The notes beneath the pieces are model-generated. The model had not been told where the DNA came from, ran no database searches, and saw only the letters and a list, made by a program, of their open reading frames with translations. Positions 2,849-32,564 of a stretch of 64,000 nucleotides of DNA are shown here, one piece after another. The stretch's first letter is position 1, and every line of letters begins with the position of its first letter. Source of the stretch: Psychrobacter sp. I-STPA10 (GTDB lineage: Bacteria > Pseudomonadota > Gammaproteobacteria > Pseudomonadales > Moraxellaceae); assembly GCF_021012795.1 (NCBI RefSeq), contig NZ_VFYU01000024.1, positions 1 to 64,000 on the forward strand, written 5' to 3'. The position numbers were made by a program, and so were the translations under genes.

Positions 2849-3832
2849 ATGAGCCAAACTACATTATCTGATCAAAACCAACCATCGAATGCGGATGCAA
2901 CTATTAATACCACCTTGCCCAAAGATCCCAGCGTCTTTGGTCGGGTCGCTGTGGTGTATGGGGGTAATAGTAATGAACGTGTTGTGTCCATTGATAGTGG
3001 CTCAGCTGTATTAAAGGCATTGCAAGACTATGGCGTGGATGTGACTCATTTTGATCCCAAAACAGACGATATTTTGGCCCTGAGAGACTATGATCGAGTG
3101 TTTAATGTGTTGCATGGTCGGGGTGGGGAAGATGGACTACTACAAGGTTTGCTTGAATGGTTTAACATTCCTCAAACAGGCTCTGGCGTATTGGCATCGG
3201 CAATTGGTATGGACAAAGTACGTACCAAGCAGCTATGGCATGGGTGTGGCTTATCGACAGCGCCATTTTCACTATTGACAGCAGATACAGATTGGCAACA
3301 AGTAGTGAATACTTTGGGATTACCATTAATCGTTAAGCCTGTGCATGAAGGGTCTAGTATTGGTATGACCAAAGTAAATCAGCTAGATGAATTGCCTGCT
3401 GCTTATGAAACAGCCGCTGCTTGTGGCGATGCAGTGATGGCAGAAAAATGGATTACAGGGCGTGAATTTACCATCGTGATTATTGATGATGACGCCTATC
3501 CTGTCATTCGCCTAGAGCCTGCTGATATTACCAACTTTTATGATTTTGAAGCAAAATACAATCGCAATGACACAGGTTATTATATCCCGTGCGGTTTGTC
3601 AGAGGCGGATGAAAAGCATTTACAAGCCCTAAGTTTGGCAGCATTTAAAGCAGTCAATGCCAAAGGTTGGGGTAGAATAGATGCCATGCAAGATGAGCAA
3701 GGTAATTTTTGGTTATTAGAAATCAATACCGTACCGGGTATGACCAGTCATAGTTTAGTACCCATGGCTGCCAAAGCTCGGGGCATGGATTTTCAAACCC
3801 TATGTGTGCATATCTTAGCGCAAACATTATGA
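2849..3832 (+). CDS. ddl: D-alanine--D-alanine ligase (DdlB type)
   Basis: The enzyme makes the D-Ala-D-Ala dipeptide that MurF adds to the peptidoglycan precursor. It is an ATP-grasp enzyme of 327 residues. The N-terminal VAVVYGGNSNERVVS region starts near residue 33, the LHGRGGEDG loop is near residue 87, and the EINTVPGMTSHS metal and substrate motif is near residue 290. About 30 polar residues precede the core, longer than the E. coli enzyme. No internal methionine closer to the core has an obvious ribosome site, so the extension may be real. About 300 bp of AT-rich DNA with no recognisable gene separate it from ftsQ. Confidence 0.95.
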   Translation: MSQTTLSDQNQPSNADATINTTLPKDPSVFGRVAVVYGGNSNERVVSIDSGSAVLKALQDYGVDVTHFDPKTDDILALRDYDRVFNVLHGRGGEDGLLQGLLEWFNIPQTGSGVLASAIGMDKVRTKQLWHGCGLSTAPFSLLTADTDWQQVVNTLGLPLIVKPVHEGSSIGMTKVNQLDELPAAYETAAACGDAVMAEKWITGREFTIVIIDDDAYPVIRLEPADITNFYDFEAKYNRNDTGYYIPCGLSEADEKHLQALSLAAFKAVNAKGWGRIDAMQDEQGNFWLLEINTVPGMTSHSLVPMAAKARGMDFQTLCVHILAQTL

Positions 3833-28379: not shown

Positions 28380-28826
28380 TCATTGAGCAGATAACCAGTT
28401 GACATAGGCTTCAATGACCTCTTCAGCGATGATTTTTTTATCAGCCTCATTGATACCGATAATCTGACGGGCTGGAATACCATCACGCCCATAATGCTGG
28501 GTAGCAGCATAGACAGAGTTACTACCAAACTTAACCCCATAGTCACTCGCTTGTGCGTGCAGGGTGTCAAAGAGCCGACCTGAGTACTGCAATATCTTTT
28601 GATAATTTGCCTTTTCTTTCTTTTTGGCTTGGTACTTTTCATTTAAGGGTGTCCACGCATTTCCGTCTGGGTCAATCTCTTGCTCATAACGTTTTTTGTG
28701 AATGATGGTCAGTTGCTCGCCAATGGCTTCCCAAACAGCCCTATCCATAAATTTAAGCGACTGCACCTTATCTAAAATATCGACCACATCTTGTAACGTT
28801 AATGTGGCAACGGATGATCTAGCCAT
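28380..28826 (-). CDS. Virion morphogenesis protein (Mu gpG-like)
   Basis: The ATG at 28826 (MARSSVATLTL) has TAAGG upstream. The 148-residue protein has the morphogenesis family features WEAIGEQLTIIHKKRYEQEI, then DPDGNAWTPLN and ILQYSGRLFDTLHAQA, and the C-terminal IPARQIIGIN. Mu gpG is needed for head or tail completion. Its position after MuF is conserved. A 173-bp gap without a gene follows before the Gp49-like gene. Confidence 0.85.
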   Translation of the reverse strand: MARSSVATLTLQDVVDILDKVQSLKFMDRAVWEAIGEQLTIIHKKRYEQEIDPDGNAWTPLNEKYQAKKKEKANYQKILQYSGRLFDTLHAQASDYGVKFGSNSVYAATQHYGRDGIPARQIIGINEADKKIIAEEVIEAYVNWLSAQ

Positions 28827-28829
28827 TAT

Positions 28830-28858
28830 TTGCAACCTTATTGCTGTTAACCTATAAT
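28830..28858 (+). promoter_or_regulatory. Sigma-70 promoter for the tRNA-like RNA
   Basis: TTGCAA at 28830-28835 and a perfect TATAAT at 28853-28858 are separated by 17 bases on the plus strand, opposite to the late operon. Transcription should begin near 28865, just before the tRNA-like fold. The same -35 sequence is used by the moron promoter at 31963. Confidence 0.75.
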
Positions 28859-28864
28859 GAAATT

Positions 28865-28990
28865 AGACACTGTGGTGTAGAGCCCAATTCAGGTAGAAGG
28901 GACGCCCGCTATAGAGTAACCATCAAGTACGAATGCGCTTGTGGTTATCTGGCGCTGCGGTGACGTAGGTTCGAATCCTACCCATCACAG
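28865..28990 (+). ncRNA. tRNA-like structured RNA in the prophage head block
   Basis: The stretch folds as an imperfect cloverleaf. The ends CTGTGGTG (28870-28877) and CATCACAG (28983-28990) pair over 8 bp with one G-U. A D-arm-like loop has CCC/GGG and the AATTCAGGTAGAA pattern. The T arm GTAGG-TTCGAAT-CCTAC (28965-28981) is perfect. In place of a normal anticodon arm, CGCC/GGCG is extended by a long hairpin (AGA-TAACCA-CAAG with CTTG-TGGTTA-TCT, single-base bulges). No CCA end is encoded. At about 121 nt it is too long for a normal tRNA. The role is unknown. Confidence 0.6.
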
Positions 28991-29014
28991 TTGTCGCATT
29001 CTTTCTTACCTTAT

Positions 29015-30301
29015 TTATGGTGTGATAGCACCAAATAGCACTTTATGCTGAGACAAGCCGTCTCGCATTTTTTGATTGTAGACAATCTGTTTTCCACTTC
29101 TAATGATGTTGGTGATAATGCGTTGGCGTTTACCATCCTCATCTTTTACTTTCAGTTCATAGTCCAATCTGACGATAACCTTGCCTTTATCCGTACCCAA
29201 ATTAATGATGTATAACAGCGCATTATCTGCTTTTAACGTATCGAGTAGCACTGCTTCTGGCTCAATTAAATAGTCAGCAATATTTTCCCAAAAACTAAGC
29301 GGCAGTGGAGCGTCTTTATTGTCTCGCAAAGCATGTAACACATCGTGATCTCGTAGGGTGATAACAGCACTACTGGGCGTTAGATTTTCAGCAACCAATG
29401 CGTCAACGACTGGCTCAGGTAATACACCCACCGACTTACTCACCCCACGAGCGATTTTTTCTTTTTCTACCAGATCCACCATTTCTTTGACTTCATTGTT
29501 TAATAATGCTCTGACCTCTGCTACCTGCAACACATTACTGACCATGTTAGTAGCAAGTTTAGGCGGTACGCTAACAGCCTTATCCAGTAGTAACTTGCTT
29601 GGCATATCGACACGATTGCTACCAGCGATACGGTCAAAGCCGTAATCAATGCCTTCAGGTAATGTTACTGTCTTTGGATTGCCACTGCGTTTACCCAATT
29701 CTTTAGTTACATAGTTAATCTTAGGGCTTTTACTAATCTTTAGCTCTTCACGCTGCAATGACTTAGCACTATGGGCAATGACACTGCAATGGCAGCCATA
29801 GCCATTTATTGGATAATGTGTCTGCCAAAATGGGTCGTCACAATGTAGTACCAGACCGTCCCAATCCTTATGCAAAGGGCGTGGGTGCTTCACTCCATCA
29901 CGATGCTTATATTCCCAATATGGTCTTAAGGCTTTCATACGCCCATGTTGTTCATGGCGTCCAGCAGCAAATGAGCTATATAAATTGGTGTCATAGATAA
30001 TGCGACTTCGCCAGTCTCGACCGCCGTTATAATTCCAACCCCGCTCAGACACTATTTCATCAAAGCTTTTACGAAAGGCTTCTAGCGTTGTACCGTCATT
30101 AATAGCCTTGTCAACAGCGGTGCGAAAATCTGTCAGTATGTCGTTGCGGTTTGCCCCTGCCACCACAAACGCATAGTCATGCTCTTGACCTTCAAGATCA
30201 AGATAGCTATCTGTAGGCAAGTTAAGCTTGTTTTTAAAGAAATTAATCTGCTCTTCAAAGGGCAGTTTGGGTGCAGGAGTATCGTATTTTGTTTTAGACA
30301 T
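29015..30301 (-). CDS. MuF head protein with C-terminal nuclease-toxin-like domain
   Basis: The protein has 428 residues. The N-terminal half is a MuF minor head domain, with YAFVVAGANRNDILTDFRTA, then HPRPLHKDWDGLVLHCDDPF and YGCHCSVIAHS. MuF proteins sit at the portal and can be injected with DNA. Residues from about 290 form a separate domain (LPLSFWENIADYLIEPEAVL, then KVIVRLDYELK and IITNIIRSGK). This resembles the phage PBECR group of Barnase/EndoU/RelE-like nucleases often fused to MuF. It overlaps the portal gene by 8 bp. Confidence 0.8.
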   Translation of the reverse strand: MSKTKYDTPAPKLPFEEQINFFKNKLNLPTDSYLDLEGQEHDYAFVVAGANRNDILTDFRTAVDKAINDGTTLEAFRKSFDEIVSERGWNYNGGRDWRSRIIYDTNLYSSFAAGRHEQHGRMKALRPYWEYKHRDGVKHPRPLHKDWDGLVLHCDDPFWQTHYPINGYGCHCSVIAHSAKSLQREELKISKSPKINYVTKELGKRSGNPKTVTLPEGIDYGFDRIAGSNRVDMPSKLLLDKAVSVPPKLATNMVSNVLQVAEVRALLNNEVKEMVDLVEKEKIARGVSKSVGVLPEPVVDALVAENLTPSSAVITLRDHDVLHALRDNKDAPLPLSFWENIADYLIEPEAVLLDTLKADNALLYIINLGTDKGKVIVRLDYELKVKDEDGKRQRIITNIIRSGKQIVYNQKMRDGLSQHKVLFGAITP

Positions 30302-31811
30302 GAGTAGCCTCGTCTGTATTGTTATTTGCTACACTTGCCATACCTGCCAGCTTTGCACTGATATTTGCTTCAGTAAACACACGAGCATAATCATCAAAAC
30401 TTAACTGCTTAGCTAAGCTGTTTAATTGCTCTCGTAATTCCTCTAAGCTGTCTACATCGTCTAGGATTTGCTTAATTTTATTTATCCACCCACCTGTGAT
30501 GGGTGCAATCTCATCAGCAAGCTGGTCAACCATACTATCAATTTCGTTATTTGTTTCTGGCGACTCAGCAAAATCAGTAGAGTTTTTACTTTGATTGTTA
30601 TCATACTGCTTGCCAGTTTCTGTACCTGACTGATTACCAGCAACTTGGTTGGTTTGCGTACTGATTTCCTCCCATTCACCACCAAAGGTATCTTCAACTG
30701 TTTTAAGTGTAGGACGATAACCAACTTTGACCATGTTAGCCCAAGCTTGAGTTTTCTTAAGTTCATCTGCTTCATCACTAGTCAGTAGCCATAACTTAGG
30801 TGGATTGGCATTTGGAAAGTTCCACTTAGTCAGCCATTTGATGATGGTGTTATTAAAACTACTACACAGCAGGTCAGCATCGGCTTTGATGATGTCTTCT
30901 TTGACCTGATTTTGTATCTCTGCCTTGTACTGACCACCAATAGCCTGACTGGTCATTACTTGCCCTAATATCACAATGGCAATAGCTTCATCCATATAGC
31001 GACAAAGTGTCTCGTAGTCTTCTGTACCGCTTGCCCCTTTGAGTAGTTCTACCACTGTGCCTTGAGCGGTGGCAATGGCAGAGCCATTTTTAAGAGCGAC
31101 ACCTGCTCGCAATGCTTTTTCTCGCTCAGCGGCTGGGTCAGGTGCTTTTGAGTCATATTGCACATGCGGCATCGAAGTAGCAGCTTTCTCTAGCCCCAAT
31201 AGCCAAAACTTAATGTTTGATTTTTTAAACAATACTGCCCAAAATAAATAATGAGCAAGACCTAGTCCGTAAGGGTTATCTGTCGTATCACCGCCTGCAC
31301 TATATGTCCAAAACTTAGCCTCTGGCACAACCGTTTCACTATCATTACCTATGTATAGTAGTTGCTTATCTTTATCAAATTTAAACTTGCCTCGGTCTCG
31401 TACCAATATATCGCTAATACCCACCTTACCATCCACCAATGACCACATTGCTTCTGCCACACCATAGCCATAATAAACACCCCATTGCATGGCTTTTAGC
31501 ACCCTGTCAAAGGCGATGCCTTCTATTTGAGCTTTGATAAACTCGGCAGCTTCGACATCAGCGGGGTTATCACTATCAGCGGGTATGATTTGACGCTCCA
31601 TTTGTACCAATGCAGATTGCCGCTGTGTCCACGTACCAAATACAGTGGTATCAGTTAATAGATTACGGTAGCCATTGATATCACCTGATAGTTTATTGGT
31701 TAAGATATCATCAATAATCTCAAGCTCGGTGATGTTGTGCTCAACTGCAACCTCTGTGCTGGGTTTGGTCGGAGATGGGGGGGCTTTGGTGGTGGATTTA
31801 GTGTTACTCAT
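30294..31811 (-). CDS. Portal protein (DUF935, Mu gp29-like)
   Basis: The 505-residue portal forms the dodecameric ring for DNA entry. MERQIIPADSDNPADVEAAE, then AMQWGVYYGYGVAEAMWSLV and ILGQVMTSQAIGGQYKAEIQ, match the DUF935 family. The start overlaps nothing upstream. A moron gene with its own control region (31812-32564) separates it from the large terminase gene, which in other phages is directly adjacent. Confidence 0.92.
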   Translation of the reverse strand: MSNTKSTTKAPPSPTKPSTEVAVEHNITELEIIDDILTNKLSGDINGYRNLLTDTTVFGTWTQRQSALVQMERQIIPADSDNPADVEAAEFIKAQIEGIAFDRVLKAMQWGVYYGYGVAEAMWSLVDGKVGISDILVRDRGKFKFDKDKQLLYIGNDSETVVPEAKFWTYSAGGDTTDNPYGLGLAHYLFWAVLFKKSNIKFWLLGLEKAATSMPHVQYDSKAPDPAAEREKALRAGVALKNGSAIATAQGTVVELLKGASGTEDYETLCRYMDEAIAIVILGQVMTSQAIGGQYKAEIQNQVKEDIIKADADLLCSSFNNTIIKWLTKWNFPNANPPKLWLLTSDEADELKKTQAWANMVKVGYRPTLKTVEDTFGGEWEEISTQTNQVAGNQSGTETGKQYDNNQSKNSTDFAESPETNNEIDSMVDQLADEIAPITGGWINKIKQILDDVDSLEELREQLNSLAKQLSFDDYARVFTEANISAKLAGMASVANNNTDEATHV

Positions 31812-32045: not shown

Positions 32046-32564
32046 ATGGCAGGGGTGAAATGCGCCAAATGTGGTGAGCTAATGCAGGGTAAAGTAAAAG
32101 CAAATGCAGTGATAGAGTGTTTGTCCTGCAAAAAACAATTCCGTGTGACAGATGAGCTAATAACAGCCTATGAGCAGGAACGAGAAAAAGGGTTTATAGA
32201 CTATTTAAGGGCTTATGGTATCTATGGCTTGGGGGTGTTGGTTGCTTTGCTCATTGCTTATATTTTTATTTTTGGAGAAAAGCAGCCACTACCATCTAAC
32301 GGTTATGAGCCACCAGCAGGTGAGGTGTTTTTTAGCAGTTGGGACGGCTCTAATAGAGACTTGGTCGCAGTCGTAAAAGCAGGTATGCATAATCCAGACT
32401 CATTTGAGCATGTTGAAACTCGCTATCATGATAATGGCGACAGCTTTAGTATTTTAATGACATTTCGAGGCACAAATGCAATGGGGGCGACCGTCACTCA
32501 GCAAGTGACCGCAGATCTTGATAAACAAACTCGGCAAATTAGCAATCTAAAAGCCATTAAATAG
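32046..32564 (+). CDS. Moron: zinc-ribbon single-pass membrane protein
   Basis: The protein has 172 residues. An N-terminal zinc ribbon has CAKC and CLSC knuckles (C6/C9 and C29/C32 region). A charged linker, one membrane helix (YGLGVLVALLIAYIFIFG, about 58-75) and a roughly 95-residue outer beta domain (DSFEHVETRYHDNGDSFSIL) follow. It is the only gene of the late block on the plus strand. It has its own promoter, and its end overlaps the terminase end by 18 bp. These are moron hallmarks: expression from the prophage to benefit lysogen or phage, for example by superinfection exclusion. The function is not known. Confidence 0.75.
   Translation: MAGVKCAKCGELMQGKVKANAVIECLSCKKQFRVTDELITAYEQEREKGFIDYLRAYGIYGLGVLVALLIAYIFIFGEKQPLPSNGYEPPAGEVFFSSWDGSNRDLVAVVKAGMHNPDSFEHVETRYHDNGDSFSILMTFRGTNAMGATVTQQVTADLDKQTRQISNLKAIK

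Follow-up and report, generated by a model that had tools for sequence, protein, structure and literature searches.

In type III toxin-antitoxin systems of the ToxIN kind, a ribonuclease is neutralized by an RNA built of short direct repeats that the toxin processes. The bacterial Y RNA YrlA, which works with Ro60/Rsr, mimics tRNA through an elbow with D and T loops. Passages of PMC5576092 describe polymorphic toxins of temperate phages in which a MuF protein carries a C-terminal extension and a partner element lies directly downstream; small ORFs, proposed to encode immunity proteins, were found after most of these MuF toxins, and the same passages leave undecided whether the MuF extensions of Proteobacterial phages are toxins. 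For phage Mu, parts of PMC5512222 present the gp30 domain as an inactive PBECR whose active orthologs are likely RNases. Colicins D and E5 and the BECR-fold CdiA-CT tRNases, as portrayed in sections of PMC9086364, have His and Thr in their active sites and protein immunity partners, and are not virion proteins.

The locus analyzed here belongs to a Mu-like prophage of Psychrobacter sp. I-STPA10, whose late genes, including lysozyme and capsid genes, lie on the minus strand of the window, as we call the whole stretch of 64,000 nucleotides (contig NZ_VFYU01000024.1, positions 1 to 64,000). Like the MuF toxins, it combines a MuF protein that has a C-terminal extension with a partner element directly downstream, but this element is an antisense structured RNA. 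As in type III toxin-antitoxin systems, the RNA would neutralize a ribonuclease; no short direct-repeat array was seen in the unit, however, which is tRNA-like and has its own antisense promoter-like box, and the putative toxin is a virion protein. It has an elbow with D and T loops like that of YrlA, yet it has no Rfam match, and a YrlA or Y RNA identity appears less likely, with a weak TROVE match in only 2 of 105 genus genomes. One of these is the window's own genome, where the match (27.8 bits, positions 291-372 of 442) is just over the cut-off; G045, G056, and G096, all RNA bearing, gave no TROVE match. The MuF end is predicted to fall into the domain class of the colicin and CdiA-CT tRNases. 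A virion protein with an RNase-like end next to a tRNA-shaped RNA that has a promoter-like box of its own is arranged as a toxin and its immunity factor would be.

The RNA unit and its genes

The unit occupies window positions 28866-29001 on the plus strand, opposite to the late operon, between the MuF and gpG genes. The near-consensus promoter proposed by the initial annotation is indeed present as a sigma70-type sequence immediately upstream, antisense to the two genes (TTGCAA at 28830-28835, a 17-nt spacer, and TATAAT at 28853-28858), and the predicted RNA 5' end lies near 28866. The RNA opens with the 5' strand of an acceptor-like closing stem, P1 (GACACTGTGGTG, 28866-28877), followed by the junction UAGAG (28878-28882) and a D-like arm, CCC-AAUUCAGGUAGAA-GGG, with GG in its loop (28883-28901). 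The anticodon arm is replaced by a long bulged arm at 28903-28959, for which single-sequence folds give a base stem (CGC-CGCT/GGCG-GCG), a bulge, and an upper stem, capped by the apical loop GAAUGCG (28931-28937). A perfect T arm, GUAGG-UUCGAAU-CCUAC (28965-28981), an unpaired C (28982), and the P1 3' strand (28983-28994) complete the fold, and the 3' tail CGCAUUC (28995-29001), complementary to the apical loop, follows P1 immediately; all of these parts are on the plus strand. The D-like and T arms, the replaced anticodon arm, and the lack of an encoded CCA end are as first described. The closing stem also exists, but it extends to about 12 nt (10 of 12 pairs are standard) instead of the 8 bp first assigned to it, and although the fold at 28866-28994 stands, the tail belongs to the unit as well. 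The complementarity of loop and tail, the spread of the RNA over other Mu-like phages, and its link to an RNase-like MuF end go beyond that first reading.

Folding energy by itself is weak evidence for an RNA structure here. On the plus strand the z score was -2.20, with 5 of 200 shuffles equally good, and on the opposite strand it was -2.30, with 6 of 200. Since the energy only mildly beats that of shuffles, and does so on both strands alike, the case for a structured RNA rests on comparison. ARAGORN called no tRNA gene in the window, and Rfam 15 placed no family over the RNA at E values up to 5, its matches elsewhere all being subthreshold. One of those, to CRISPR-DR35 at 29858-29891 within the MuF coding region (E = 0.0022; 29.8 of the 35 bits needed), is perhaps due to chance.

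The flanking genes are all on the minus strand. The gpG-like gene (28380-28826; Phage_tail_S, PF05069, E = 4.2e-25) begins at the promoter of the RNA, whose 3' end lies near the stop codon of the MuF (gp30-like) gene at 29015-30301. The MuF product matches PF04233 over residues 58-175 and has a MuF_C-type domain at residues ~234-428; a predicted RNase-like domain, encoded at 29018-29602, contains His323, Arg401, and Ser402 in the motifs DVLHALRD and NIIRSG. The portal gene (Portal_Mu) lies at 30294-31811. Between portal and terminase genes, a 172-amino-acid ORF (32046-32564) runs on the plus strand, against the direction of the late operon; CxxC motifs and a stretch of hydrophobic residues can be seen by eye, and the ORF looks like a moron.

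Covariation across fifteen units

Related units fall into several types, and we compared 15 distinct units of types A and B from Psychrobacter, Cardiobacteriaceae, Vandammella, one Neisseriaceae metagenome-assembled genome (MAG), and viral contigs. This set leaves out a weak unit (L031 7068, minus strand), the type C unit of L031, and L115, as well as duplicate copies in L003, L004, L033-L035, L068, L070, L071, L073, L074, L120, L122, and L163. In the resulting alignment, A6, 88.6% of 420 cells were paired, against 62.0% in shuffles. Two-sided changes were found in 21 of the 28 pairs (17.7 in shuffles), and the compensatory changes in homologs that the initial annotation had named as a check were thus found, with 117 double-changed cells against 43. 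The covariation score reached 0.736, a value attained by none of 500 shuffles (0.216 in shuffles), and sliding the partners by 1 to 3 columns brought it to 0.177 or below. This covariation rules out a chance fold.

The helices contribute unequally. P1 has two-sided changes in 11 of its 12 pairs, with 92.8% of cells paired, and the CCC/GGG pairs of the D-like arm are formed in 97.8% of cells. The T stem is paired throughout (100% of cells), with two-sided changes in 2 of 5 pairs. Pairing is poorest in the base stem of the long arm (71.7% of cells), where 7 of 8 pairs show two-sided changes. There is hardly any variation in the D-like and T loops, partly since the search patterns required them: the T loop UUC(A/G)A(A/G)U occurs in all 15 units, most of its positions having been demanded by the patterns, and the GG of the D-like loop is invariant, AGG itself being part of the patterns. 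Two features of tRNA, a T loop UUCRANY and the D-loop GG, are accordingly present in every unit, partly by construction, and the junction UAG(A/G)G or AAGGG, also found in all 15, belonged to the expression used for listing. An unpaired C precedes the P1 3' strand in each of the 15. The proteins encoded nearby diverge considerably, as four MuF proteins beside such RNAs are just 25 to 34% identical to the window MuF.

G-U pairs outnumber A-C pairs by 18 to 4 in P1 and the T stem, which identifies the plus strand as the RNA and rules out an RNA on the mRNA strand. A TAT[AC]NT motif occurs within the 16 nt 5' of P1 in 12 of the 15 units, a position that argues for an RNA start at P1; the exceptions are L031 8507, which directly follows another unit, L161 (TAGATT), and one L165 unit (TAGTAT). 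The apical loop matches its own tail (mean score, 16.4) better than the tails of other units (10.6). No permutation out of 20,000 reached the score of the true pairs, and 1 in 20,000 did so for 10 less redundant units; L031 8982 departs from this rule, and L183/L184 have only 4 bp. Judged by this complementarity, loop and tail may pair either in cis or between molecules. A conserved small ORF was rejected for types A and B, as 6 of the 15 units, including that of the window, have no frame on either strand that stays open through the unit. For type C the test decides nothing, since one or more frames stay open in each of the 51 distinct units. Taken as a comparison of sequences, the evidence leaves the existence of this RNA and its conservation in little doubt, and a phage-borne family of tRNA-shaped RNAs is well supported.

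Distribution and sister RNAs

In the 105 genus genomes, blastn with the RNA matched three others over 30 nt at 97%, and the sequence around each match showed the whole architecture with different stems. The covariance model R1 scored above 80 bits in 4 of the 105, the window's own genome included; elsewhere in the genus no score exceeded 32 bits, and at the three such loci that were checked the match was a tRNA. IMG/VR and a named genome collection, scanned with patterns and then with R1, added Cardiobacterium valvarum (two units), two Cardiobacteriaceae MAGs, Vandammella animalimorsus, the Neisseriaceae MAG, and viral contigs. The pattern matched 25 genome stretches, 6 of which hold units above 50 bits, and the remaining stretches seem to be chance hits or tRNAs. 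With a second model, R2, members were found in 4 of 299 family genomes and, among 398 phylum genomes with at most 8 candidates scored in each, in the own genome only. Such a patchy distribution is as expected of phage cargo.

Other searches gave less. In phages, blastn with the RNA returned 31 records with short matches only (E ~0.6), many of them at tRNA T arms; the window MuF alone as a query in viral contigs and an exact T-arm-plus-acceptor pattern search yielded nothing useful. Rfam gave only subthreshold matches of unrelated families in six further loci and no match at E values up to 0.5 in ten loci. Literature searches, in which most titles were judged from listings alone, turned up no recognizable description of the RNA. 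Likewise, the portions of Pasteurellaceae small-RNA and RNA-seq studies covered name no RNA in a Mu-like prophage, and some of these portions never mention phage.

The placement of the RNA antisense beside MuF is evident in these loci. A MuF match adjoins 12 of the 15 type A/B units, always antisense, and all MuF proteins beside these 12 match the C-terminal profile A8, several being A8 rows themselves. On the far side of the RNA, a gpG match was found in the window, L161, L165, L174, L176, L183, and L074; in L032 and L003, which hold Psychrobacter phages, a gene for a Mu-like protease follows on that side, and in L166 neither neighbor has a Pfam match, but the MuF profile does match. Among 80 loci searched with helper profiles, at least 35 gave a gpG match. 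The other three units belong to a Psychrobacter array (L031 7027-9117; G096:C4 ~221026-223116), in which five tRNA-like units of several types lie amid small unknown ORFs. Three were found by R2, one is type C by sequence, and one is weak; no MuF match was found within the 18 kb searched around the array, and the three proteins flanking it had no Pfam or PADLOC match. In one F-G gap of Cardiobacterium valvarum (L165 3181-3576), types A, C, and B occur together.

The sister type C is shorter (~72 to 100 nt from P1 to P1), with the T loop common to types A and B and the core GGUUUCCUACUGGAAAGG ... AUCCUGUUCGAAUCAGG. Its pattern matched 82 viral stretches, and the 80 analyzed hold 85 units; it also occurs in Pasteurella phage AFS-2018a and in the middle of a Cardiobacterium cluster (L073). 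For 83 of the 85 units the stretch has a MuF match, antisense in every case and within 400 nt in 82. P1 of type C comes in 39 distinct sequences (L244 and L269, with short ends, being omitted from this count), of which 35 pair best in one common register, a few being short or imperfect. No type C unit was found in E. coli genomes, and 369 class genomes contained no match to its pattern. A terminator-like T run follows the P1 3' strand in type C units of L204, L211, L250, L255, and L270.

Other RNAs may occupy the same gap. L115 has a shorter T-loop RNA (R1, 29.8 bits; R2, 35 bits). In Pseudomonas phage B3, L080, and L088, the gap has a promoter-like box and a long closing stem but no T-loop motif; in B3 (L194 1471-1595; NC_006548) the antisense box reads TATAGT, and the only annotation is a hypothetical ORF in the 33-amino-acid class. 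L078 has a 126-nt F-G gap (3544-3670) whose fold is different and stable (-54.5 kcal/mol, flanks included); it was flagged alongside L087 and is possibly a further RNA type. Phage Mu has no room for such an RNA, as its genes 30 and 31 overlap.

The MuF C-terminal domain and the role of the RNA

The C-terminal half of MuF in RNA-bearing phages forms one family (alignment A8), and the window MuF matches its profile, of which it is itself a row. Pfam MuF_C matched L199, L074, L080, L193, and L153 at E values of 3.8e-4 to 0.15, all below the curated cut-off, and did not match the window protein, L208, L085, or L078; L076 has PBECR2 instead. We surveyed 170 loci with an RNA detector; setting aside 11 whose flanks were short and 36 that duplicated another locus in the last 60 residues left 123 unique loci. 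As controls in these 123, the sense strand of the same regions gave 2 hits, and antisense pieces inside MuF gave 6 in 367. A set of 71 unique loci, which came in through MuF similarity or were chosen as reference phages, includes 14 MuF_C-type genes, and 7 of these are followed by a promoter-plus-stem RNA; of the 57 other genes, 1 is (Fisher P = 1.9e-5). This contrast is partly circular, as the MuF_C profile consists mostly of RNA-bearing rows (all of its 22 except L083 and L153) and the detector was shaped once types A and C had been seen. The 14 loci are few and related, and one of the seven RNA-bearing ones, L122, was counted from an R1 hit; L068, L070, L122, L229, L232, L233, and L241, which the detector missed, were added to the tally manually on the strength of model or pattern hits.

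All seven RNA-bearing loci of the 14 keep the predicted catalytic His and Ser/Thr. Among MuF_C loci without RNA, the His is lost in phage Mu, L083, L099, and L197, and L087 is truncated; L153 keeps both residues and no RNA was found there, and L078 keeps both beside its foldable gap, which the detector did not score. The association of RNA with intact residues has a two-sided Fisher P value of 0.02, or 0.003 if L078 is counted as RNA bearing. Among all 58 tabulated RNA-bearing MuF_C loci, 51 have both residues (H323 and S402 in the window), and the other seven comprise five incomplete proteins and L068 and L070, which have no His. These two and L161 are Vandammella phages in which the RNA is present and the His absent. 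MuF ends of the PBECR2 type, which are also predicted RNases, had the RNA at 0 of 15 loci (Pfam having been run on L076 alone). The correlation supports the view that the RNA accompanies an intact MuF_C domain.

An AlphaFold2 model of window MuF residues 204-428 has a mean pLDDT of 88. Foldseek gave no PDB match at an E value of 0.001 or below, all matches having E values above 0.1. The top second-look match in the PDB, by VIA-align, was 6cp9 chain C (Z = 3.5; root mean square deviation, 3.7; 88 residues), with the next at Z = 2.5. According to parts of PMC9086364, 6cp9 is the toxin-immunity complex of CdiA-CT Kp342, a nuclease of the BECR fold that acts specifically on the anticodon loop of tRNA-Ile and has His, Arg, and Thr among its active-site residues. 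Chain C is presumably the toxin, as its residue range contains these active-site residues. A Z score of 3.5 may reflect a common arrangement, and the model therefore lends weak support to a BECR fold.

The best explanation, to which we would give about even chances, is that the RNA is a constitutive tRNA-shaped antidote, or immunity RNA, to a predicted RNase carried by the virion. For this mechanism we infer an RNase activity of MuF, a tRNA target, binding of the RNA to MuF, and the timing of RNA synthesis. A lysogen would make the RNA constitutively, and the RNA would offer a tRNA-like elbow in which the anticodon arm is swapped for a long arm locked by loop-tail pairing. With this elbow and this replacement, it would bind the RNase domain of MuF as an uncleavable substrate mimic and so shield the lysogen, both against the MuF it encodes and against MuF brought in by related virions, in parallel to the immunity proteins of polymorphic toxin systems. 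The reading of the RNA as a tRNA mimic is the best of those offered in the initial annotation.

Anti-CRISPR genes of Pseudomonas Mu-like phages are located nearby, between G and I, and this position lends some weight to a different role, in which a lysogenic-conversion (moron) RNA aimed at the host is made at once on infection and serves as a tRNA-elbow decoy against tRNA-cutting defense or tRNA-handling enzymes. The promoter-like box of its own, the reverse orientation, the tandem and mixed copies, and the G096 array without a MuF match in its 18-kb stretch would suit such a role, which we nonetheless regard as unlikely, given that the RNA lies directly after MuF wherever MuF is in reach and is nearly absent after MuF types without a MuF_C-type C-terminal domain. 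The array also weighs against a regulator that would act on the late operon at the F/G junction, as antisense RNA or by transcription interference. In favor of such a regulator are the antisense position at every MuF found beside the RNA and, in the window, a promoter located where gpG starts and a 3' end close to the MuF stop. An antisense RNA needs complementarity only, but here the loops and the fold persist and the stems change in a compensated way, and the same gap holds different RNA types; this early proposal is the less likely one, and we consider its chances slim.

The location in the head gene block, and multimers that loop-tail complementarity could permit, would accord with an RNA that MuF binds, as a structural component or cofactor, while heads are assembled or DNA is delivered, with MuF_C being an RNA-binding domain instead of an RNase; RNA binding is suggested for the inactive Mu domain in parts of PMC5512222. 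Phage Mu, L083, L099, and L197 have a MuF_C-type MuF and no RNA was found in them, however, and transcription of the RNA runs against the late genes, which makes this role very unlikely. Least probable of all are degenerate or noncanonical tRNA genes, despite the T arm, the D-like loop, and the 28 to 32 bits that R1 gives at the three loci checked where ARAGORN calls tRNA-Pro. ARAGORN found no tRNA gene in the window or in the RNA-bearing loci scanned (L002-L005, L031-L035, L068, L069, L072, L073, L115, L139, L085, L163, L165, L194, and L195), P1 has about 12 nt and is not a 7-bp acceptor stem, a long bulged arm stands where the anticodon arm would be, CCA is lacking, and covariation extends to the parts that are not tRNA-like; the noncanonical working tRNA first envisaged is therefore unlikely.

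In its broader form, the antidote proposal holds that virions deliver a polymorphic RNase toxin whose immunity factor is a tRNA-shaped RNA and not a protein. Across several bacterial families, Mu-like phages would keep this RNA antisense at the 3' end of the toxin gene and would shed it once the RNase is dead, as in phage Mu, and it would have diversified into types A/B and C and perhaps the RNA of B3 that has no T loop. We advance this form tentatively, as somewhat less probable than the antidote role itself.

The RNA represents a conserved family, with no Rfam 15 match in our searches, in one of the best-studied groups of phages. It offers an answer to a gap left in passages of PMC5576092, where the toxin nature of the extensions on Proteobacterial MuF proteins stays undecided; since small immunity ORFs were sought after MuF in the work those passages describe, an RNA immunity factor would have been missed. 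The MuF/RNA pair makes the toxin question directly testable in E. coli K-12. If the proposal is true, a tRNA-mimicking RNA that blocks a tRNase would be both an unusual inhibitor and an unusual immunity determinant.
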